Under the pieces are notes generated by a model that was not told where the DNA came from, did no database searches, and worked only from the letters and a program-made list of their open reading frames with translations. A program made the position numbers and the translations under genes. From positions 1 through 64,000 of the forward strand of contig JACRBM010000101.1 of assembly GCA_016219275.1 (NCBI GenBank): DNA of 64,000 bases, written 5' to 3'. Of the stretch, positions 1 to 12,339 are shown one piece after another; the stretch's first letter is position 1; every line of letters starts with the position of its first letter. This DNA comes from Chloroflexota bacterium. GTDB taxonomy: Bacteria; Chloroflexota; Anaerolineae; UBA4142.

Positions 1-144
1 GCGGCTACAAATCACCGTGCCATTTCTAGATAGGGGTGCGCGGTCTTTGCCCGCGCCGGGGGGAGACTTCCCCCCGCACACACAAAAAAGAAAATGATTT
101 TGTGACGCTTGTTGAAGATAGAATAAATGTGCTATAATCAAAGT
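1..144. other. Left-edge spacer with hairpins and a promoter
   Basis: No gene is visible. There is a GC-rich hairpin near 35-57 and a perfect 7-bp hairpin at 58-75 (GGGGGGA / TCCCCCC) without a T-tract. A possible promoter follows: TTGAAG (112-117), a short 15-base spacer and TATAAT (133-138). The start point predicted from the -10 falls on the ATG at 145, so the next gene is probably leaderless. Confidence 0.45.
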
Positions 145-426
145 ATGAACACACACACACAAATAGAACCTGAGTACGAACGTAAACCGCAACCGCAAGA
201 ATGGGAAAAGAAAATGCTCGATGATTTCATTTTCCTGTTTTCACGCGGCGTTAGAATTCAAGTCTATCCCCAACTGCAAGTCGGTCGTAATGATTTATGG
301 CGTCGAGTCTATTTCTTCCGTCCGAACGCCAAGCCCATTGTAGGCAAGTTGAATCAATCGGCGACGATAAAAGAACTCGCCGAACTGCTGGCGCAAATTC
401 GGCGAGTATACTTCGTCCTGTCCTAG
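145..426 (+). CDS. Small hypothetical protein, probably leaderless
   Basis: A 93-residue protein with a charged N-terminal third and a C-terminal part rich in aromatic and basic residues; I recognise no family. An in-frame ATG at 127 also exists but lies ahead of the TATAAT at 133-138. The ATG at 145 sits seven bases after that -10 box, so I take 145 as the start of a leaderless message. There is no Shine-Dalgarno sequence. The gene converges on the minus-strand gene ending at 430. It lies in the accessory part of the window left of the integrase. Coding status is likely but not certain. Confidence 0.5.
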   Translation: MNTHTQIEPEYERKPQPQEWEKKMLDDFIFLFSRGVRIQVYPQLQVGRNDLWRRVYFFRPNAKPIVGKLNQSATIKELAELLAQIRRVYFVLS

Positions 427-429
427 TTT

Positions 430-807
430 TTACTTCGGAGCATATCCCCCGAACTTCCACACGACTTTTTCAATGTAGTCGAGTGCCAGGTCAATCGAGT
501 CTGCCCAGATGTTAGATTCGTTCTCAAACGTCTTGGTAACGCGTTTGACGTATTTCTCACTGGCAACCCCGATGATAGTCTGGCAAGGATCACCGTTCGG
601 CAAAACAAACTCCAATTTGAACGCGTAATTACGTCCGCAATCGTTGATAGGCATTCCTGCCTCATCGAGCACTTCGGGATGATACCAAATATCACCCTCA
701 AACGGTTTCGATTCTTCCTCTGGCAAACCGTTCGACATCACGACCGCCAATGCCACAAGCAGGAAAACGACCGCAAACCATTTCAGATTAAACATTCGCA
801 TGGTCAT
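430..807 (-). CDS. Exported or membrane-anchored small protein
   Basis: A 125-residue protein that starts with ATG at 807, preceded by AAGGAG. The start overlaps the stop of the upstream gene in an ATGA arrangement, so translation is probably coupled. Residues about 8-25 form one hydrophobic segment (FNLKWFAVVFLLVALAVV), a signal peptide or anchor; the rest is soluble with two cysteines in the predicted extracytoplasmic part. The open frame extends upstream to 984, but that part overlaps the zinc-ribbon gene in another frame and is not needed. I do not recognise the family. It is the last gene of the set RNase HI, XRE protein, zinc-ribbon protein, exported protein. Confidence 0.6.
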   Translation of the reverse strand: MTMRMFNLKWFAVVFLLVALAVVMSNGLPEEESKPFEGDIWYHPEVLDEAGMPINDCGRNYAFKLEFVLPNGDPCQTIIGVASEKYVKRVTKTFENESNIWADSIDLALDYIEKVVWKFGGYAPK

Positions 808-1007
808 TTCGATTCTCCTTCGAGTTGAATTTGTCCGCGCTTGCGCCTCTCGTTGCAGTTCGGACATAGGTTTTTCAAAAACGTTTTGCCGCGCCAAATC
901 TCGAACATCTTGACGTTGATGCCTTGGGGTCGTCCACAATAGCCGCACTTCATTTCTTCGTTCACGCGAAAGGGGATGACCCACAATCGGTTGAGGTCAA
1001 TCGCCAA
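804..1007 (-). CDS. Small zinc-ribbon protein
   Basis: A 67-residue protein with two CxxC knuckles (CGYCGR near residue 21 and CPNCNER near 48), spaced like an HNH-type or zinc-ribbon fold but without an HNH histidine-asparagine signature. The start shown is TTG at 1007, seven bases after the stop of the XRE gene; an ATG at 953 just before the first CxxC is the alternative, and neither has a strong ribosome site. It overlaps the next gene by ATGA. It may bind nucleic acid or a protein partner; the function is unknown. Confidence 0.55.
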   Translation of the reverse strand: MAIDLNRLWVIPFRVNEEMKCGYCGRPQGINVKMFEIWRGKTFLKNLCPNCNERRKRGQIQLEGESK

Positions 1008-1013
1008 GGTCTG

Positions 1014-1673
1014 TCACTTCTTCACTCCTCCCACCTCCTTGGATTTCGTACGTCGCTTAGTTTTTTCCACACGCCGATTCCCAGGATGACGACGCGCCCG
1101 GCGGCGAGCGTAATGAGACAATCGAGCACTGGCATTTTCTTCCCTCACTTTCCGCAACCACAACTTACGGCACTCGCCCTTGTTGTGCTTGCAGTAAACT
1201 CGCCGACGGTCTGCCCAAAAAAAGTAATTCCCGTGTCCTCTGCATTGCATCGGCGGTGTTTCCACATAGACCAGCGGCGGTAGATCAACCTGGGTTATTA
1301 AGCGCACGCTCGTCCTGGGCGTCATATCGCGGAATGCCCAAAATGCTTTGGCAAACCTGGGATTGGGTTTGCGACTCCCGCCCTCATAGTGTTTAATCGT
1401 CGAGCGTGACACATCAAACTTTTTTCCAAACTCGGTTGCGGATAGTCCGAGATGTTGGCGCAACTGCTTGATTTCCTTGCCGGACGGCAAACGGCTGAGA
1501 GCGACGATTTGGGGTTTCTTGGACTCGGATGCCTCACGGCGTTTTTTCGTGCCTCTCAAACGACAAGCACTACTTTCCGCACTAGGGGTTTTCGCCTTTT
1601 TTGACTTTCCGAGAACCCTCTTTTGGGGCATCGTTCGACTGCGTTTTTCGATAGGGCGGGGTGTGTTCATCAT
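1014..1673 (-). CDS. XRE-type helix-turn-helix protein with basic tails
   Basis: A 219-residue protein. Residues about 60-105 form a helix-turn-helix of the XRE/Cro class (LGLSATEFGKKFDVSRSTIK, then HYEGGSRKPNP). The N-terminal 55 residues and C-terminal 45 residues are very rich in Lys and Arg, and a Cys/His-containing stretch (CRGHGNY to CKHNKGEC) follows the helix-turn-helix, which could hold zinc. The ATG at 1673 overlaps the RNase HI stop as ATGATG, so the two are coupled. A DNA-binding regulator or nucleoid-type protein of the island is the likely role. The pairing with RNase HI is unusual. Confidence 0.65.
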   Translation of the reverse strand: MMNTPRPIEKRSRTMPQKRVLGKSKKAKTPSAESSACRLRGTKKRREASESKKPQIVALSRLPSGKEIKQLRQHLGLSATEFGKKFDVSRSTIKHYEGGSRKPNPRFAKAFWAFRDMTPRTSVRLITQVDLPPLVYVETPPMQCRGHGNYFFWADRRRVYCKHNKGECRKLWLRKVREENASARLSHYARRRARRHPGNRRVEKTKRRTKSKEVGGVKK

Positions 1674-2110
1674 TTCCTCAGCATCGACTCTTGCGCGATT
1701 TCGCGCTTGCGTAGTCGGATCAACGACTTGGCAAACCGATCCGCTTGTTCGTTGCGTTCATCCCCACCATGTCCGGGAACGTGCACCCATTCCACCTGCA
1801 ACCCTTTCGTCGCAATCAGTTGGTCAATGTGATTGGAGATTGCGGCACACGGTAGATTCTTCCGTGCGTACGTCCCAAGCATCCACTGCACAACCAGGTT
1901 GCTGTCGGTGTAAAGGACGATCTGCGCCTCCATGTCCACGAACTCGAGGGCGCGTTCCACCGCACGCAGTTCCATCAGATTGTTAGTCGTGTGGTCTTCC
2001 GCTTGACCGAGGCGCACATCCCCGCCCTGGTCATCCACAACGATAGATGCCCACGCCCCAAGCCCAGGATTGCCGGAGCACGCCCCGTCCGTCCAAATCT
2101 TGTACTGCAT
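1670..2110 (-). CDS. rnhA: Ribonuclease HI
   Basis: Hydrolyses the RNA strand of RNA-DNA hybrids in the cytoplasm. All four catalytic carboxylates are visible: Asp in WTDGACSGNPG (about residue 8), Glu in MELRAVERAL (47), Asp in YTDSNLVVQW (69) and Asp in ERNEQAD (124), with the conserved VPGHGG loop between. The length, about 146 residues, is normal for the family and there is no N-terminal hybrid-binding domain. I chose ATG 2110, seven bases after AAGGAGGT; a GTG at 2116 abuts the ribosome site. It is the first gene of a coupled minus-strand set, so it may be an accessory copy. Confidence 0.93.
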   Translation of the reverse strand: MQYKIWTDGACSGNPGLGAWASIVVDDQGGDVRLGQAEDHTTNNLMELRAVERALEFVDMEAQIVLYTDSNLVVQWMLGTYARKNLPCAAISNHIDQLIATKGLQVEWVHVPGHGGDERNEQADRFAKSLIRLRKREIAQESMLRK

Positions 2111-2585
2111 TGTCACACCTCCTTAAATTTTTGAATCACGTCATTCGCATAGCGTTGCTTAGTAAAGGAAACGAAACGCCTGGGAAGCCCCCTGTCACCA
2201 GAGGGCTTTGCCGCGTATGAGGTATCCGATACGGAGCTGTCGCTGATCCCTCCGTTATTTATGCCTGGGTGCGTTTTGGTGCATCGCCGGGTCAGATGTT
2301 CCGCGATTCACACCCAGGATTATTTACCGGTGTCTGGCGGGTCTCTCAAGAGTTGCCTGTGTGGACGTGCTTGCAAGTGGCGGATTCGTCCGAATCGCTT
2401 TTGTGCCTGGACTTGCAAGGTCGTGCCAAGTTGCTTGTGCCGTTCCGCATCCTTTTGCGTTCGTGGCGATCGCGCTATGTTCAGACTCGACGACAAGCGA
2501 CATCGGTCCTGCTTGTGCTCAACCTGCCAAAATGCACTCGCGCCGATGAATCAACCCATTACTCGAACTGATCGCATTTTGACTT
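2111..2585. other. Spacer without a supported gene
   Basis: About 470 bases. Short plus-strand frames exist between 2261 and 2587, but three of them overlap in different phases, none has a ribosome site, and the translations are Cys- and Arg-rich in the way of non-coding GC-rich DNA. A hairpin with one mismatch lies near 2185-2210 (AAGCCC...GGGCTT). I see no known RNA family here, although the segment 2160-2260 is dense in short complementary blocks. Confidence 0.4.
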
Positions 2586-2607
2586 AGAACGGACGTTCTG
2601 ATACAAT
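2579..2607 (+). promoter_or_regulatory. SOS-boxed promoter of the LuxR-type gene
   Basis: TTGACT (2579-2584), a 17-base spacer and TACAAT (2602-2607). The spacer contains AGAAC-GGAC-GTTCT (2586-2599), which fits the GAAC-N4-GTTC LexA/DinR box of Gram-positive type. A repressor bound there would cover the polymerase contact region. The predicted start point coincides with the GTG at 2614, giving a leaderless transcript. Confidence 0.65.
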
Positions 2608-2613
2608 TATCGC

Positions 2614-2961
2614 GTGACTGATTTACAATTTCTTGCGTTGATCGCGATTGCTGTTGTTTCCGTTCTGCTTGCCGTATGGCTCTGGCGTCATCGCTACCGC
2701 ACCACGACCAAATCGTCTGCGATGAACGTCATTGGACATTCACCCACCCCCATCCACCGTACTTGGTTGTGGGATTCGCTCACCTCTCGCGAAACCGAGG
2801 TCGCGCGCCTCGTCGTTCAAGGGATGCGCAATGCCGACATCGCACAGGAACTGCACATCTCTGTCCACACAGTCGAATCTCACCTCAAGCACATCTACGC
2901 CAAGCTCGACGTGCACACCCGCGTCGAACTCGTGCGCCTTATCCGCGACCTGACCGATTGA
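2614..2961 (+). CDS. LuxR-type HTH protein with N-terminal membrane helix
   Basis: A 115-residue protein: one transmembrane helix at residues 5-23, a short linker, then a GerE/LuxR helix-turn-helix (LTSRETEVARLVVQGMRNAD, then HISVHTVESHLKHIYAKLDV). There is no receiver or ligand domain, so it is a membrane-tethered DNA-binding module. The start is GTG at 2614, with no ribosome site and with the -10 box seven bases upstream. Its promoter contains a LexA-type box, so it should be induced by DNA damage. It converges on the small winged-helix gene. Confidence 0.75.
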   Translation: MTDLQFLALIAIAVVSVLLAVWLWRHRYRTTTKSSAMNVIGHSPTPIHRTWLWDSLTSRETEVARLVVQGMRNADIAQELHISVHTVESHLKHIYAKLDVHTRVELVRLIRDLTD

Positions 2962-2969
2962 CCTTCGCC

Positions 2970-3224
2970 TCATGGCGTTGCCAACCGCCATTCTCCGCCG
3001 ACGACACAGATGCTGCGTGACTTGCGGCTCGCCGTCAGGCGGATATAGCCGGCGTTCTGTAAGCGATGGAGTTGATACAACGCCACACTCCGGCTTGAAA
3101 TGCCGCAGGCATGCATCAGCTCGACGAGAGAGGGAGAGTTGCCATCGTGGTGAGTTTTGTAGGCGACGATCCACTCGAAGACCTTCTGTAGATCGTGGAC
3201 CGCACGCCGGTGGGTGCGTTTCAT
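2970..3224 (-). CDS. Orphan LexA-like winged-helix DNA-binding protein
   Basis: About 84 residues from ATG 3224, preceded by AGGAAAG. The sequence matches the N-terminal DNA-binding domain of LexA in layout: an initial helix (VHDLQKVFEWIVAYKTHHD), SPSLVELMHACGISSRSVAL as the recognition unit, then LHRLQNAGYIRLTASRKSRS as the wing. There is no autopeptidase domain, so it cannot self-cleave like LexA. The frame is open upstream to 3317 but that part runs through another hairpin repeat and lacks a ribosome site. It may act on the dyads at 3365-3570 or on the LexA-type boxes on either side. Target and function are inferred. Confidence 0.65.
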   Translation of the reverse strand: MKRTHRRAVHDLQKVFEWIVAYKTHHDGNSPSLVELMHACGISSRSVALYQLHRLQNAGYIRLTASRKSRSICVVGGEWRLATP

Positions 3225-3308
3225 TGCGTTCTTTCCTGATTTGTGATACAGTGTGGGTGGAAGGCGGACTTGCTTCCCACGGCTGATCCGCCCTCCACCA
3301 CGTTTCGT

Positions 3309-3336
3309 GCGCGGCATCTATTTGCCGCGCTTTTTT
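3309..3336 (+). terminator. Hairpin plus T-tract, copy 1
   Basis: An 8-bp stem (GCGCGGCA / TGCCGCGC) with a 6-base loop, followed by TTTTTTAT. It has the form of an intrinsic terminator for plus-strand transcription entering from the LuxR-type gene. It is also the first part of a roughly 98-bp unit that is repeated at 3407. Confidence 0.6.
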
Positions 3337-3364
3337 ATGCCCGTTATTGGGGAGTAACGGGAAT

Positions 3365-3570
3365 CCGTGATATGCAAATCACGGAAAAATACCCTGCGTA
3401 CGTAAAGCGCGGCATCGCAGTGCCGTGCTTTTTTATTGGTGTAACCAACCAGTAACGGAATCCCGTCATAGGCAGATCACGGTCAAACAACGGTTCTCCC
3501 GGAAATCCGTGATATTGCTATCACGGTGAAATGCCGGCACTCACGGAAACCCGTGATCAGAGAATCACGG
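3365..3570. repeat. Four 20-bp dyads ahead of the recombinase gene
   Basis: Dyads at 3365-3384, 3463-3482, 3507-3526 and 3551-3570, each CCGTGAT, six variable bases, ATCACGG (the second copy reads CCGTCAT in its left arm). The last three are spaced exactly 44 bases apart, about four helical turns; the first is 98 bases from the second. Conserved arms around a variable 6-base centre fit either operator sites for a dimeric repressor or dif-like core sites of a tyrosine recombinase. They lie directly upstream of such a recombinase gene. Confidence 0.8.
3407..3436 (+). terminator. Hairpin plus T-tract, copy 2
   Basis: Stem GCGCGGCA / TGCCGTGC with one G-U pair and a 6-base loop, followed by TTTTTTAT. 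Second copy of the unit that starts at 3309. Confidence 0.55.
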
Positions 3571-3592
3571 ACAAATCCCCTGTTTCAGGGAT

Positions 3593-3606
3593 AGAACGTA
3601 GGTTCT
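3593..3606 (+). promoter_or_regulatory. LexA/DinR-type box ahead of the recombinase
   Basis: AGAAC-GTAG-GTTCT, the same arrangement as the box at 2586-2599, centred 48 bases before the recombinase start. I cannot place a convincing -35/-10 pair around it, so the promoter itself is unclear. Confidence 0.55.
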
Positions 3607-3647
3607 GATTGTGCTACCCTACCCTTCACAGACCGGAGGTGCACCCT

Positions 3648-4571
3648 ATGGAACTTGAACGCGCAATTCAATCGTTTTTGCAGGATGTCGTGGCTCGCGA
3701 TTTGAGCGGCAACACCCACAAGCGTTACGCCGCCGACCTCGGCAATCTTGCCGCCTTCTTGCAGCCACGATCCATCACACTGATCGAGCAGATAACTACC
3801 GAGCATCTGCGCGCGTACTTTGCTGATTTGCACGAGCGACCAAACGGTCGTCGCCCGGACACAAAATTATCGCCTTACAGCATCGAGGGCATGTATCGCA
3901 CGTTCAAGACCTTCTTTCGGTTTTGTGAGTGCGAGGAATATCTCGCGCAAAATCCGATGGTGCGTATTCGCAAGCCCAAATTGCCGGACCGCATTGTGCC
4001 GCGTCTCTCCGAAGAACAGGTCGTCACGTTACTGAATGAGGTCGAGCACACCCAATCACCTGAACGCAATCTCGCGCTCTTGATGTTGATGGTGAACAAT
4101 GGTCTTCGCCGCGGTGAAGTGCTCGGACTCACGATTGATAATGTGTATCTTGATGAAGACCGCATCCGGGTCACAGGCAAAGGGCGCAAGGATCGCGATG
4201 TGCCACTCGGCGAATCATCCGCGCTCGCGTTGTGCAAATGGTTGGCGGTTCGTCCCGCGTCGCTCGTCAAGAATGTGTTTCTGAATGCGGATGGTTCGGC
4301 ATTCAAGGCACCTGGCGTGCGATCGCTCTTTCAGCGGTTGCAAATTCATGCCGGACTGAAGCGCCTGTATCCCCATCTCCTCCGTCATACATTTGCCAAG
4401 CTCTATCTCAAGCGAGTGCGTGATGTGAAATCTCTGCAACAAATTCTCGGACACTCCAAATCGAGTACGACGCTCGATCTGTATGTGGAGTATGATTTCA
4501 ATGACCTCATTGCCATCTATCGTGACGGCTCGCCGGTGGATGCAATAAAAAAAGCGCTAATTGTAAAGTGA
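3648..4571 (+). CDS. Xer-like tyrosine recombinase / integrase
   Basis: A 307-residue site-specific recombinase. The N-terminal SAM-like core-binding domain covers residues about 5-100. The catalytic domain carries the R-K-H-x-x-R-H-Y set: Arg in NNGLRRGEVLG, Lys in GKGRKDRDVPLG, HLLRHTFAKLYLKR, then LGHSKSSTTLDLYVEY with the nucleophilic Tyr. ATG 3648 has GGAGGT seven bases upstream; the frame is open from 3609 but without a ribosome site there. The length and the absence of the extra IntI helix argue for a Xer/phage-type enzyme and not an integron integrase. Four dyads and a LexA-type box lie upstream, and a tRNA-Gly 3' end lies downstream, the classic context of an island integrase. Confidence 0.9.
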   Translation: MELERAIQSFLQDVVARDLSGNTHKRYAADLGNLAAFLQPRSITLIEQITTEHLRAYFADLHERPNGRRPDTKLSPYSIEGMYRTFKTFFRFCECEEYLAQNPMVRIRKPKLPDRIVPRLSEEQVVTLLNEVEHTQSPERNLALLMLMVNNGLRRGEVLGLTIDNVYLDEDRIRVTGKGRKDRDVPLGESSALALCKWLAVRPASLVKNVFLNADGSAFKAPGVRSLFQRLQIHAGLKRLYPHLLRHTFAKLYLKRVRDVKSLQQILGHSKSSTTLDLYVEYDFNDLIAIYRDGSPVDAIKKALIVK

Positions 4572-4588
4572 ATTTACAATTAGCGCTT
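4552..4588 (-). terminator. 16-bp perfect inverted repeat over the recombinase stop
   Basis: AAGCGCTAATTGTAAA and its exact complement, with a 5-base loop. The left arm encodes the last residues of the recombinase. Read on the minus strand the stem is followed by a T-run (T7 ATT), so it is a good intrinsic terminator against transcription arriving from the right. No comparable T-tract exists on the plus strand. Confidence 0.65.
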
Positions 4589-4658
4589 AAGCGGGACACA
4601 AATCGCGACGACTAGGAGAAGTCCGGGTCTCTCCTTGAGCATTAGAACGTTTGTCTTA

Positions 4659-4700
4659 TTGCCAAGGAGAAGGTCGCGAGTTCAAATCTCGTCTTCCGCT
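4659..4700 (+). pseudogene. 3' half of tRNA-Gly(GCC): likely attachment site
   Basis: The pieces are in exact tRNA register: anticodon loop TTGCCAA, 3' anticodon stem GGAGA, variable loop AGGTC, T-arm GCGAG-TTCAAAT-CTCGT, acceptor strand CTTCCGC and discriminator T. No matching 5' acceptor (GCGGAAG) or D-arm is present to the left, so this is not a whole tRNA gene. The partner stem TCTCC followed by TTG occurs at 4630-4637, separated by 21 extra bases. An integrase gene ending 90 bases away makes this a probable attL/attR junction, with the intact tRNA expected at the other end of the element, outside the window. Confidence 0.7.
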
Positions 4701-4730
4701 TTTTTTGTAGATCAGGGGTTTGTGCCCCAC

Positions 4731-4760
4731 AAACCAGTCTTCACCGGACTGGTTTTTATT
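4731..4760 (+). terminator. Terminator behind the tRNA fragment
   Basis: A 9-bp stem (AAACCAGTC / GACTGGTTT) with a 7-base loop, followed by TTATTTT. It is probably the original terminator of the tRNA-Gly gene, preserved on the chromosomal side of the junction. Confidence 0.65.
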
Positions 4761-4802
4761 TTCTCGCCTCCTCGCTGTTCGGTAAATCAGTTTTGAGCGC
4801 AC

Positions 4803-4837
4803 GAAAAATCGCGCGATGTATCTGCACATCGCGCGAT
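4803..4837 (-). terminator. Terminator of the beta-galactosidase transcript
   Basis: A 12-bp perfect stem (ATCGCGCGATGT / ACATCGCGCGAT) with a 6-base loop, followed on the minus strand by TTTTTCG. It lies 170 bases beyond the stop of the beta-galactosidase gene. Confidence 0.7.
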
Positions 4838-4872
4838 CGCGCAATCCCATTTGCACAGCTTGCGCTTGTCCC

Positions 4873-5001
4873 GAATCCAGGTTTCTTGGAGAAAGCTGGA
4901 TTCTTTCTCGCCGCCGAGAGAGTCCGACGAGTGTTGATAAACCGCGAATCTACGGAAATTCTTATTTTGATTCATGAAGATTCGCGTGATTCGCGGATCA
5001 C
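4873..5001. repeat. Two intergenic palindromic repeats
   Basis: 4873-4903 is an imperfect palindrome with GAATCCAG / CTGGATTC arms around TTTCTTGGAGAAA, related to the perfect one at 32879-32911. 4941-5001 is a degenerate stretch built from GATTCGCG-like words (CGCGAATC ... GATTCGCGTGATTCGCGG), the same kind as at 39571 and 63476. No gene is seen in 4572-5003 apart from the tRNA fragment and terminators. Confidence 0.6.
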
Positions 5002-5003
5002 AA

Positions 5004-8126
<3,123 letters not shown>

Positions 8127-9386
8127 TCATTCTACCACAAGACGCGAAAACCGTAACGCTTGATCCAAATCGGCGATCAAATCCTGGGCGTCTTCAATTC
8201 CGACAGCAAACCGAACCAGGTTGTCCGGAATTCCCAGTTTCAATCGTTCCGCCGGCGCAACATCATAGTACGCCATCTTCGCCACGTGGAGCGCCAAACT
8301 TTCGACGCCGCCGAGCGAGGGCGAAATGTACGGAATCCGGAGCGCGTCCATAAATCGAAACGTCGCGTCCAAATCTCCGCGCACAGTAAACGAAACGACG
8401 CCGCCGAATCCATTCATCTGCCGCGCCGCGATCGCGTGCCCCGGATGTGTTTTCAATCCAGGATACCACACGTGTTCGATGTTGGGATGCGCCGCGAGAA
8501 ATTCCGCGATCTGTTGCGCGGTTTGATTTTGTTTCTGGACGCGCACGCTCAACGTTTTCATTCCGCGCAGTAACAGGTATGCCGTGTTCGAATCGGAAAT
8601 GCCGCCCAGGATGCCGATGGCGTCGCGCAGCGGATCAATCAGTTCGTTTCGTCCCGCGATAAACCCGGCGAGTAGATCGTTGTGACCGCCCAGGTATTTC
8701 GTCGCCGAGTGCGTGATCAGATCAATGCCCCAATCGAGCGGGCGCAGATTGATCGGCGTTGCAAAGGTCGCGTCAATCACGGTCAACACTCCACGACGGC
8801 GACCGATTTCCGCGAAGCGTTCGACGTCCAAAACGCGCAAGTATGGATTGGACGGGGTTTCCGAAAACAGCACGCGCGTCTCTGGTCGAATCGCGGCTTC
8901 CAGCGCATCGTAATCGCCGAGCGGCACGACCGTCACCGCGACGTCGTAGCGCGTGAGGAACTCTTCGCAGAATTGACGCGTGCGCCGATAGCTGTCGTCG
9001 GTCATAATGATGTGTTTTCCCGGTGAGAGCAAATTCAAAAAAGTATCCGTCAGCGCCGCCATCCCCGAGGCAACCAGGATCGCGCCTTCGGCATGTTCCA
9101 ACGCGGCAAGGCGCGCCTCCGCTGCCGCGCTGGTCGGATTGCCGTAGCGTCCATATTCAAAACGGTCGGCGACGTGACTGTGCGCGTGAGATTCTTGGAA
9201 CGCGCACACGTCCGCCATGTTTTCAAACGTGTACGTCGAAGTTTGGAAGATGGGATCCACCAACGCGTGATGCGATTTGACGCGCGCCTCGTGCGCGTGG
9301 ACTGCGCGCGTGGAATCGCCTTGCGCGGTCGGTTGGAACGCGCGCGAATGTTTCGCGTGTTCTTCGGACTGGAGATGGTCACTCAT
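8127..9386 (-). CDS. PLP-dependent transsulfuration-family enzyme
   Basis: A 419-residue member of the Cys/Met metabolism PLP family (cystathionine gamma-synthase, cystathionine gamma-lyase, methionine gamma-lyase, O-acylhomoserine sulfhydrylase). Visible motifs are YGRYGNPT, the phosphate-binding LVASGMAALT, the pyridine-nitrogen Asp205 (VIDATFATP), the Schiff-base Lys230 in HSATKYLGGHND, and SLGGVESL near the C-terminus. GAGGAG precedes ATG 9386. A SAM-I riboswitch in its leader shows that it belongs to methionine or sulfur-amino-acid supply, which favours a biosynthetic role. The exact reaction cannot be fixed from sequence alone. Confidence 0.9.
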   Translation of the reverse strand: MSDHLQSEEHAKHSRAFQPTAQGDSTRAVHAHEARVKSHHALVDPIFQTSTYTFENMADVCAFQESHAHSHVADRFEYGRYGNPTSAAAEARLAALEHAEGAILVASGMAALTDTFLNLLSPGKHIIMTDDSYRRTRQFCEEFLTRYDVAVTVVPLGDYDALEAAIRPETRVLFSETPSNPYLRVLDVERFAEIGRRRGVLTVIDATFATPINLRPLDWGIDLITHSATKYLGGHNDLLAGFIAGRNELIDPLRDAIGILGGISDSNTAYLLLRGMKTLSVRVQKQNQTAQQIAEFLAAHPNIEHVWYPGLKTHPGHAIAARQMNGFGGVVSFTVRGDLDATFRFMDALRIPYISPSLGGVESLALHVAKMAYYDVAPAERLKLGIPDNLVRFAVGIEDAQDLIADLDQALRFSRLVVE

Positions 9387-9821: not shown

Positions 9822-11120
9822 TCATTTGCGGCGCACATCCTCGATTGCCGCTCTCAGTTCGGCATGGTCTTGCGCGTACTCCTCAAGCGTGAGACCGCGA
9901 TGGGTCGCATCCCAGGATTGTCGCAGACTTGCCGCACCGGCTTGCGGTCCCAGCGAATGTTCAAAGACGGCGCGACCTGGCACGATTCCAAAATCTACAC
10001 TCTTCAATTTTTCGTACAACTGCGGGATCGAACCAGCCCACTGGCTTCCCGCCGGAACGGGCAATGATTTTTTGATGTGCCCCATTGGTTCGACACACGC
10101 CTGAATGTCACACATCACTTCCGCGTCCGATGTTTTCATGCGGTCGCCAAAGCCGGGCAAGATGATGCAATCGAACCCGACCAAGCGTTGCAGTTTGGTG
10201 ATGACGCGCGAATGAACGCCGAAATATGGCATACGAGTAAAGGGCGCGATGAAATCGAAATGCGCGACCAGGGGAACCTGGGTATGTTTTCGCAGCATCC
10301 TCACCGCACTCAAGCCCGTGGTCATGCCATTGACCATCAACGCGTTCGCGCCGCGCGCGACGGCGACATCGTGCAATTCGATCAGCCGATCCACCTCGTC
10401 GGTGATATTCGCGAGATAGATTTTCTTTTCCCCGGTTATCTTTTCGCACTCCACGCGCGCCCTGCCTAACTTCTCCGCGCGTTCGTCTAGCCGCGACCAT
10501 TCGACATCGCCCAACAGCTCATCATCCTTGGCGATGTCCAGCCCACCCAGCCATGCCTGGTAAGCGAGATCGGCGAAGGGCTCTGGCGCGAGACCCAGGT
10601 TCGGCTTGATGACGCCGAACAGGAGCGGACGATCGTAGACTTGAAGAATCTCGCGCAGTCCATCAATTCCAAATTTCGGACCTTGAAAATTCCGCAAGTA
10701 ACCATCCGGAAATTCTAGATCCAACAACTTGATGGCAGAAATCCCAGGTGAGTAAAAAATTCCTTCGCCGCCGATGGCGGTTAGGAGGTTTGGAATTTTC
10801 GGACCAAAGTTTCTGTGGGGATGCGCGATCTTGACCTGACAGGCATACGTTCGCTTGTTTCCAACCGCGAGGAAAGGATAGGTCGGCTTATCCAACACAC
10901 CTCCAACGACGAGATCAATGACTTTAGCACCGAATCGTTCGCGCAAATCCTCGTCCACGCCAACGCGTTTCCACTGAGCCGTTGACTGCTCTTGACACAA
11001 ATGCGCCGCCGCTTGCTCCGGGTTTACATCACATTCAAAGTAATAGTCGAGGAGGATGTATTCTTCCAGATTCAAACTAGCGCGATCGGCAAAGAAACCG
11101 CGTTGATTTTCGTGCGCCAT
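9822..11120 (-). CDS. RuBisCO-like protein (form IV type)
   Basis: A 432-residue protein of the RuBisCO large-chain superfamily. It keeps the lysine of GVIKPNLGL (K172) and the metal-binding KDDE in [12 protein letters not shown] (K198-E201), but the loop-6 region reads VPAGSQWAG in place of the carboxylase GKLEG-type loop, so ribulose-bisphosphate carboxylation is unlikely. Known relatives act in methionine salvage or in isoapionate-type sugar-acid breakdown (OiaX/OiaT). ATG 11120 follows AAGGAT and lies five bases after the Tm-1-like stop. Its neighbours (RpiB-type isomerase, metallo-hydrolase, sugar ABC importer) favour the sugar-acid role over methionine salvage. That assignment is inference. 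Confidence 0.85.
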
Positions 11121-11124
11121 GTGT

Positions 11125-12339
11125 TTATCCTTTTTCGGATCGTAAAGCCAGAAAGAGCTGAACCGTTGCATCGGCGAATTCGGCATCGTTGATGTGCGCG
11201 TCTATTTCAACGCGCTTGATTTCCGGGTCAAGTTCCGCGCGCATCGTCTCGATGTACCCCGCGTTCGCCGCCGCGTCGTACAACGGCGCGCCTTCGCGAT
11301 TGAGCATACTGAATCCGCGCAGCGGAATGATCGCCGCACGCGGACCCTTGCCGGCATTGAGTCGCTCCGCGATGAAATGCGCGACCGCCGACATTTCCGC
11401 CGCCGTCGTGCGAAAGTGCGTGTGCGTGGGCGAGTGACGCACGAACGCGCGCCCGCACAAATCAGGAGACCAATCCTCGCGCCATTCGTGCAAGCGCACA
11501 TCCGCGCAACCCGGCGCGACGATTTGCGGAATGCCCACTCTGCCCGCCACCGTCATGCGACCTGGGAGCGCGGGCATCATGCCATCGTACAGCAAATCGG
11601 TGACCTCGTGCGGCGAGAAATCAATGACGCCCTTGATCACGCCATCGGCAATCAGTTCTTCCATCGCCTGTCCGCCGATGCCGTTGCAATGAAACGCGAT
11701 GACCTCGAATCCCAGTTCTTCCAAACGGTCTTTGATCGCCATCACGCCCGGCGTTGTCACGCCGGCTTGCGTGATCGCGACCAATTCTTTTGCTTCGCTC
11801 GCCGCGATGCGAACCGTACTCATCGCGGCAACCGCGGCGGCGGCTTGCGCGAGTATCTTGCGCGTGACTGGATTCAATCCCAGGATGTCGGCAACCGAAT
11901 GAATCATTGTCACATCTTTTGCGCCGACGTACGGACCAAAGGTTGCTTTGCCGCACGCAACGGTCGAGACCATCACCTTGGGAATGCCGACGGGCAACGC
12001 GCGCATCGCGGCGGTCGCCATCGCGGTACCTTGCGCGCCGCCGACCGCGATCACGCCATCCGCTTGACCTTGCGCGAACAAACGCGAAACAATGTTGACA
12101 AGACCAGTGGTCATCGCGTTCTGACACCGCGCCTTGTCGCCGGAGGCAAGCAGATCGGACAAACTTTCGCCGCCCGCCAGCGCGACCTGGGAGCGATCAA
12201 AGTCGGCGGTCGTCGCGGCGGAACCCAGCGTGCCAGAATCAAGCACAATCGTTGTTTGCCCGGCGCGTTGAATCAGGTCGCGGATGTAGGCGACCTCGAT
12301 TCCTTTCGTATCCAGACTGCCGATGATGACGATGCTCAT
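11125..12339 (-). CDS. Tm-1-like ATP-binding domain protein (UPF0261)
   Basis: A 404-residue Tm-1-like/UPF0261 protein. The N-terminal half starts with [20 protein letters not shown] and carries the glycine-rich [20 protein letters not shown]; the C-terminal half has [14 protein letters not shown] and [10 protein letters not shown]. The family binds nucleotide; its bacterial reaction is not settled. ATG 12339 overlaps the stop of the metallo-hydrolase as ATGA, and the RuBisCO-like gene follows after four bases. The three are therefore probably translated as one unit and act in one pathway, where this protein could be the ATP-using step. Confidence 0.85.

Follow-up and report, generated by a model that had tools for sequence, protein, structure and literature searches.

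The window, a stretch of 64,000 nucleotides from the genome of a Chloroflexota bacterium (G000), carries near its start a tandem array of inverted-repeat dyads directly upstream of a gene for a Xer-like tyrosine recombinase (Table 1). The recombinase gene is followed by the 3′ part of a tRNA-Gly(GCC) gene, so that the window begins within an integrative element, in its right end. Further inside the element lie the genes for a winged-helix protein with a LexA-type DNA-binding domain, a LuxR-type regulator, RNase HI and an XRE-type protein.

Table 1. Genes and sequence features around the dyad array, in window coordinates.
Feature	Position	Strand	Remarks
XRE-type HTH protein, element gene	1014..1673	-	PF01381; homologue on contig C58 (by eye)
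RNase HI, element gene	1670..2116	-	PF00075; gene order identical on C58
Promoter of LuxR-type gene, TTGACT-17-TACAAT	2579..2607	+	GAAC-N4-GTTC (2587-2598) in spacer
LuxR/GerE-type regulator, 115 aa, hydrophobic N-terminus	2614..2961	+	PF00196, 71.3 bits
Winged-helix protein with LexA DNA-binding domain, 84 aa	2970..3224	-	PF01726, 35.1 bits (cutoff 23.7)
Conserved small-RNA gene	3224..3337	+	TTGCGT (3224-3229)-17-TACAGT (3247-3252), hairpin, terminator; hexamers by eye
Intrinsic terminator, first copy; 3′ end of the probable ~80-nt small RNA	3309..3338	+
Unit 1	3354..3404	+	dyad 3365-3384, exact; 49.9 bits
Terminator hairpin, second copy, in 98-bp duplication	3407..3436	+
Unit 2	3452..3502	+	dyad 3463-3482, one mismatch; 40.6 bits
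Unit 3	3496..3546	+	dyad 3507-3526, exact, degenerate flanks; 30.9 bits
Unit 4, promoter-proximal	3540..3590	+	dyad 3551-3570, exact; 48 bits
GAAC-N4-GTTC, LexA-box type, in recombinase promoter	3594..3605	+
Extended -10 (TGTGCTACCCT) of recombinase promoter	3610..3620	+	59 bp from start of last dyad
Xer-like tyrosine recombinase, 307 aa	3648..4571	+	PF00589, PF02899; top NCBIfam XerC, below cutoff
tRNA-Gly(GCC) 3′ part, anticodon loop onwards; attR block at the element's right boundary	4659..4699	+

Between the start codon of the winged-helix gene and the array there is probably a small RNA of ~80 nt with its own promoter. Its gene is kept in six right ends (alignment) and two pairs of its hairpin are changed on both sides; an Rfam scan of window positions 1-9000 gave nothing near the gathering score and left the small-RNA region without a match. 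Some other features were noted in passing. A perfect 16-bp inverted repeat, terminator-like on the minus strand, overlaps the stop region of the recombinase gene (4552-4588). At attR (window 4630-4665 and L005 near 9660) part of the tRNA anticodon stem recurs in inverted form at a distance of ~25-40 bp (TCTCCTT...AAGGAGA; ACCGACCGCTTA...TAAGCGGCCGGT), with AGAAC-N4-(G/A)TCT-like dyads in between. Beyond the element, a RuBisCO-like ORF (9822-11186) is found downstream of a LacZ-like ORF (5004-8081), both recognised by eye.

The first-pass annotation listed four CCGTGAT-N6-ATCACGG dyads, the last three at 44-base steps and the first two within a duplicated 98-bp segment. Exact copies stand at 3365, 3507 and 3551, but the dyad at 3463 has one mismatch (CCGTCAT-AGGCAG-ATCACGG); the steps are 98, 44 and 44 bp, as described. 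The duplication (3309-3406 and 3407-3504) is present as well, but the copies are just 63/98 identical without gaps, and the hairpin and T-tract within them are 83% alike. Not one of 2000 dinucleotide shuffles of 3300-3600 contained a dyad with at most one mismatch, and a reversed-pattern control had no occurrence across the G000 genome. At the same tolerance the dyad itself occurs at eight places in this genome (6.16 Mb), four in the window array and four on two other contigs, C58 (three, spaced by 96/97 bp) and C50 (a single one).

Each dyad is the centre of a larger unit of ~51 bp, whose aligned copies share 51 columns (GTAACGGAAATCCGTGATACGAAAATCACGGAAAAATACC...TTTCCGTG) and hold up to four half-sites in the layout TCACGG> <CCGTGAT N6 ATCACGG> ~15 nt <CCGTGAT. 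The three extra units of the window are best explained as tandem duplicates of a single unit abutting the promoter. Two other identities for the dyad were rejected: an RNA hairpin, given an uncompensated one-arm change to CCGTCAT in two units (window 3463 and G011Lb), and a CRP-type site, given half-sites whose spacing is off by 2 bp from the CRP geometry.

C58 and C50 seem to carry the opposite ends of one sister element. The gene order on C58 is that of the window (XRE, RNase HI, LuxR-type, winged-helix protein, hairpin/dyad repeats), and the repeats are followed by a different tyrosine recombinase and then by the 3′ part of a tRNA-Thr(CGT). C50 carries an intact tRNA-Thr, and about 350 bp inside it a single dyad unit in mirror orientation. 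The intact tRNA and the C58 fragment have in common a stretch that runs from the anticodon loop to CTTT, just beyond the 3′ end, which matches what is expected of attL and attR of one element. A similar block with a few differences is repeated at the two ends of a tRNA-Gln element (C75/C111), and the recombinase gene lies beside the att site, with PF00589 found in three of these enzymes. The hosts of the dyad units are integrative elements sitting in tRNA genes (Gly, Thr or Gln), at the anticodon arm, and the repeated blocks place the crossover region in the anticodon loop. No left end of the window's own tRNA-Gly element was found in the assembly, where the tRNA-Gly block occurs once. When relatives were examined for an unoccupied target site, the other tRNA-Thr loci met (G002, G010) had none of the tested flanking genes beside them. 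On G011:C30 and G012:C131 (L039 11040-11460; L040 8710-9250) a left end directly follows a right end at the same tRNA-Gly fragment, thus the elements are stacked in tandem.

The exact dyad is found in 5/14 genomes of the family; the match in one of them, G007, lies inside a reading frame and looks like chance. A 51-column model built from 18 units recovers 22 units in five genomes (G000 8, G008 1, G010 1, G011 3, G012 9). One of the 22 scores weakly (E 0.0016), and another weak hit in G012 reads an already listed unit from the opposite strand. Apart from the G007 match, units in family genomes occur only at element ends: before the recombinase gene at right ends (window 4, C58 3, and one each in G010, G011, G012:C131 and G012:C111), and in mirror orientation beside the re-formed tRNA at left ends (C50 1, G008 1, G011 2, G012:C75 2, C80 2, C131 3). 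When 298 genomes of the class were searched, model matches at E<=1e-4 stayed within the five unit-bearing genomes. The exact pattern was also met once in each of five genomes outside the family (396 class genomes searched, family included), and these matches are taken as chance since about six are expected by estimate.

The six right ends were also found independently of the dyad, by a search with the winged-helix protein, and units are present at all six loci where that protein is strongly conserved (E<1e-24). The left-end loci, except those of G011 and L040 (G012:C131), were reached through the dyad or its model, and the presence of the dyad there is therefore partly by construction. Relatives of the winged-helix protein in G366, G193 and G240 have other genes around them, with no recombinase or dyad seen alongside. 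The recombinase search of named genome contigs gave one locus, G012:C131, and among viral contigs neither the unit pattern nor the winged-helix protein nor the recombinase found a relative.

The earlier description had left open whether the dyads were recombination core sites or a cooperative operator array, and had overlooked that the motif also stands, mirrored, at the opposite end of the element. It is the operator claim that gains from a comparison of 12 ends, each represented by the unit nearest the att side. In 10/12 of these promoter-proximal units the distance from the start of the dyad to that of an extended -10 (TGTGST...) is exactly 59 bp, and L038 has CGTGCT, with one changed base, at that position; the degenerate left unit of L040 has its -10 at 70, by our reading because 11 bp have been inserted between half-sites three and four. 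The distance from unit to extended -10 is fixed at 17 bp in 11/12 ends, and the L040 left end keeps those 17 bp. Over 11 rows, with the degenerate L040 left unit dropped, the identity between left and right ends is 0.82 for the unit and 0.78 for its last half-site, falls to 0.27 in the 17-nt spacer, is 0.61 in the -10 and 0.26 beyond. A fixed spacing to the -10 across a spacer of unconserved sequence points to an upstream activator or operator site. Both end promoters read towards the att site, into the recombinase gene at the right and a short transcript at the left. The recombinase promoter was missed by a general sigma-70 scan of the window, which is expected of a promoter lacking a -35 but is no evidence for one.

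The left-end transcripts consist of a 38-aa hydrophobic ORF in two tRNA-Thr elements and of a hairpin RNA in the tRNA-Gly and tRNA-Gln elements, so that a common left target gene is no more than conjectural. The related ORFs, with ribosome-binding sites, lie at L006 9640-9760 and L069 5560-5680; the hairpin RNA or short ORF is seen between left-end unit and tRNA at L043 3005-3150, L039 11095-11270 and L042 3360-3470. One stem of the C75 hairpin RNA is changed on both sides (by eye), and the left-end stem reads GGATCGCG/CGCGATCC as against GACCGCG/CGCGGTC.

The resemblance of the dyads to recombination sites deserves a closer look. XerC/XerD dif sites and plasmid pdif modules have inverted arms around a 6-bp centre, and the array shares with them two 7-bp arms around 6 bp and an adjacent Xer-like enzyme. 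A role as crossover sites for that enzyme is nevertheless barely credible to us. The four tRNA-Gly elements have recombinases with 64-77% identity among themselves, and those of the tRNA-Thr and tRNA-Gln elements reach only 31-38% with them and with one another, yet the same unit lies beside all three kinds. Since the units stay constant across exchanges of recombinase and of tRNA target, they are not the core sites of that enzyme; moreover, attL and attR place the crossover block in the tRNA itself rather than within the dyad, and a C58-type recombinase of 52% identity in G001 has no unit beside it. The dyads therefore differ from dif and pdif in being no crossover site, in arms that are independent of the enzyme, and in their tandem, mirrored arrays. 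The sharing of units by elements with different recombinases, their inverted placement near both att ends and the small winged-helix protein beside the array in 6/6 loci would all suit accessory end-recognition sites, at which an element-encoded DNA-bending protein, probably the winged-helix protein in the manner of an excisionase, sets direction or synapsis. We regard this as a real though rather unlikely possibility: an exact 17 bp to an extended -10 across an unconserved spacer is a promoter feature, the ~0.9-kb recombinase gene separates the units from the crossover at the right end, and in a Pfam scan the recombinases show no extra N-terminal arm-binding domain, that of the window having its SAM-like core-binding domain from residue 7.

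Silencing of the end promoters by a repressor, with tandem units adding cooperativity, is the form of regulation suggested by a LexA-like protein gene adjoining tandem dyads and by its PHROG match 'transcriptional repressor'; phage-type LexA-like proteins are mostly repressors. But the units lie upstream of the -10 and spacer and not over them, and the recognition residues of the winged-helix protein vary while the arms are constant, which makes repression by this protein or the XRE protein fairly improbable. One element encodes, close to its right end, a replication-initiation O-like protein (PHROG match), which could suggest the iterons of an origin used by the excised element, a very remote prospect given that several ends have a single unit, that units stand beside promoters at both ends, and that none lies inside the initiator gene. 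With moderate confidence, we instead take the units to be a regulator site through which an element-encoded protein may switch both end promoters of a tRNA-targeting, defence-carrying element together. An element-like region of G000 (L115, C59:12000-20000) encodes an XRE protein that looks similar by eye, and its recombinase is another one; it lacks both the unit and the LexA-type box, and no listed ORF there gave a match to the winged-helix or LuxR-type protein; we count this joint absence in favour of a regulator site. Against a role confined to promoters stand the distal units of the array, too far from the -10 for ordinary contact, and the mirror placement at both ends, which also suits a role in recombination.

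Which protein binds the units is a matter of two unproven candidates, both encoded by the element: the LuxR-type protein and the adjacent LexA-like winged-helix protein. The XRE protein, named as a binder in the first-pass annotation, is a weak one as its gene is not adjacent to the array. The winged-helix protein lies beside the array in 6/6 loci (56-89% identity among five loci, against 31-38% for the exchanged recombinases, with the sixth row of that comparison out of frame; 55% between the window and the sixth), but its recognition helix varies (SRSVALYQL, SKSVARNQL, SLSVVAYNL) at loci with identical dyads, which argues against it. The LuxR-type DNA-recognition helix is nearly constant across the loci read (the G011 row, out of frame in the alignment, taken from DNA), and the promoter of its gene carries a LexA-type box in 5/5 elements; the gene is adjacent to or near units in 5/5 loci reaching it. 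We lean slightly towards the LuxR-type protein as the putative binder. Chromosomal LuxR-type relatives that have the LexA-type box but no units nearby speak against this preference. Four such relatives (L095, L096, L098, L099) lie, by eye, beside mutagenesis-cassette or DNA polymerase-like genes.

A LexA-type box, GAAC-N4-GTTC, lies over the promoter TTGAC[TA]-17-TACAAT of the LuxR-type gene in 5/5 right ends reaching the gene, and in 2/6 recombinase promoters. The sequence is given as the Gram-positive-type LexA motif in passages of PMC3323433, and we infer that it is used as such in this phylum and that the host LexA would bind it. In the proposed scheme, DNA damage would remove LexA from these boxes and allow expression of the LuxR-type gene, whose product (or else the winged-helix protein) would act on the ~51-bp units as its predicted binding sites. 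One unit abuts the recombinase promoter and, at the far end of sister elements, a mirrored one abuts the second att-directed promoter; recombinase and left-end transcript might be turned on together for excision. Activation is the most likely mode, given promoters without a good -35 and units placed upstream of the -10; the identity of the regulator and the direction of control are surmised from sequence. A wider proposal, which we consider unlikely as a whole, is that the mirrored units are element-specific end tags with two roles, promoter activation and recognition by a shared directionality complex, so that one regulatory module with interchangeable recombinases, each bringing a new tRNA target, would carry anti-phage systems from one tRNA gene to another in response to an SOS signal.

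Defence genes are frequent at the left ends. A PADLOC scan of 11 proteins from six left ends matched 8 to defence families: an SNF2/HKD helicase and a type IIG RM on C50; a type IIG in G008, next to one protein without match; a Cas3 with WYL domain in G011; a type III methyltransferase, a weak type III restriction match and an HEC-01/AriA-like ATPase on C131; and a type I RM subunit on C75. Neither of two C80 proteins matched, leaving 5/6 left ends with a recognised defence gene. The units define a family of integrative elements, from a poorly studied lineage, that carry anti-phage genes of the restriction-modification, CRISPR-type and other kinds, and supply a sequence tag for both element ends. 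The family also offers a testable case of a regulatory module that stays constant while integrase and target are exchanged, with a likely SOS input. We found no description of these elements in the literature searched, whose coverage mostly excludes subscription journals.

Several known systems share parts of this design. LuxR/DosR-type GerE regulators bind 20-bp boxes that are 7-6-7 inverted repeats, placed in tandem upstream of weak promoters, and the units resemble them in all these respects; here, however, extra half-sites build a larger unit, and the binder is only a candidate. Tycheposons are likewise tyrosine recombinase elements at tRNAs with variable cargo, and to our knowledge no such dyads are known from them. 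SOS-controlled integrases of mobile elements, such as those of integrons under LexA control (PMC3108266), also have LexA-type boxes in their promoters, whereas the putative cascade here would take two steps through the LuxR-type gene. With the Islander class of tRNA-integrating islands (PMC4383910), the elements share a tyrosine recombinase, restoration of the tRNA 3′ part and a displaced fragment marking the other end; they differ from that class in the mirrored, promoter-linked dyad units common to different integrases, found in one genome family. The tRNA island is accordingly of a known kind, and it is the proposed mirrored, promoter-linked regulation that is new.
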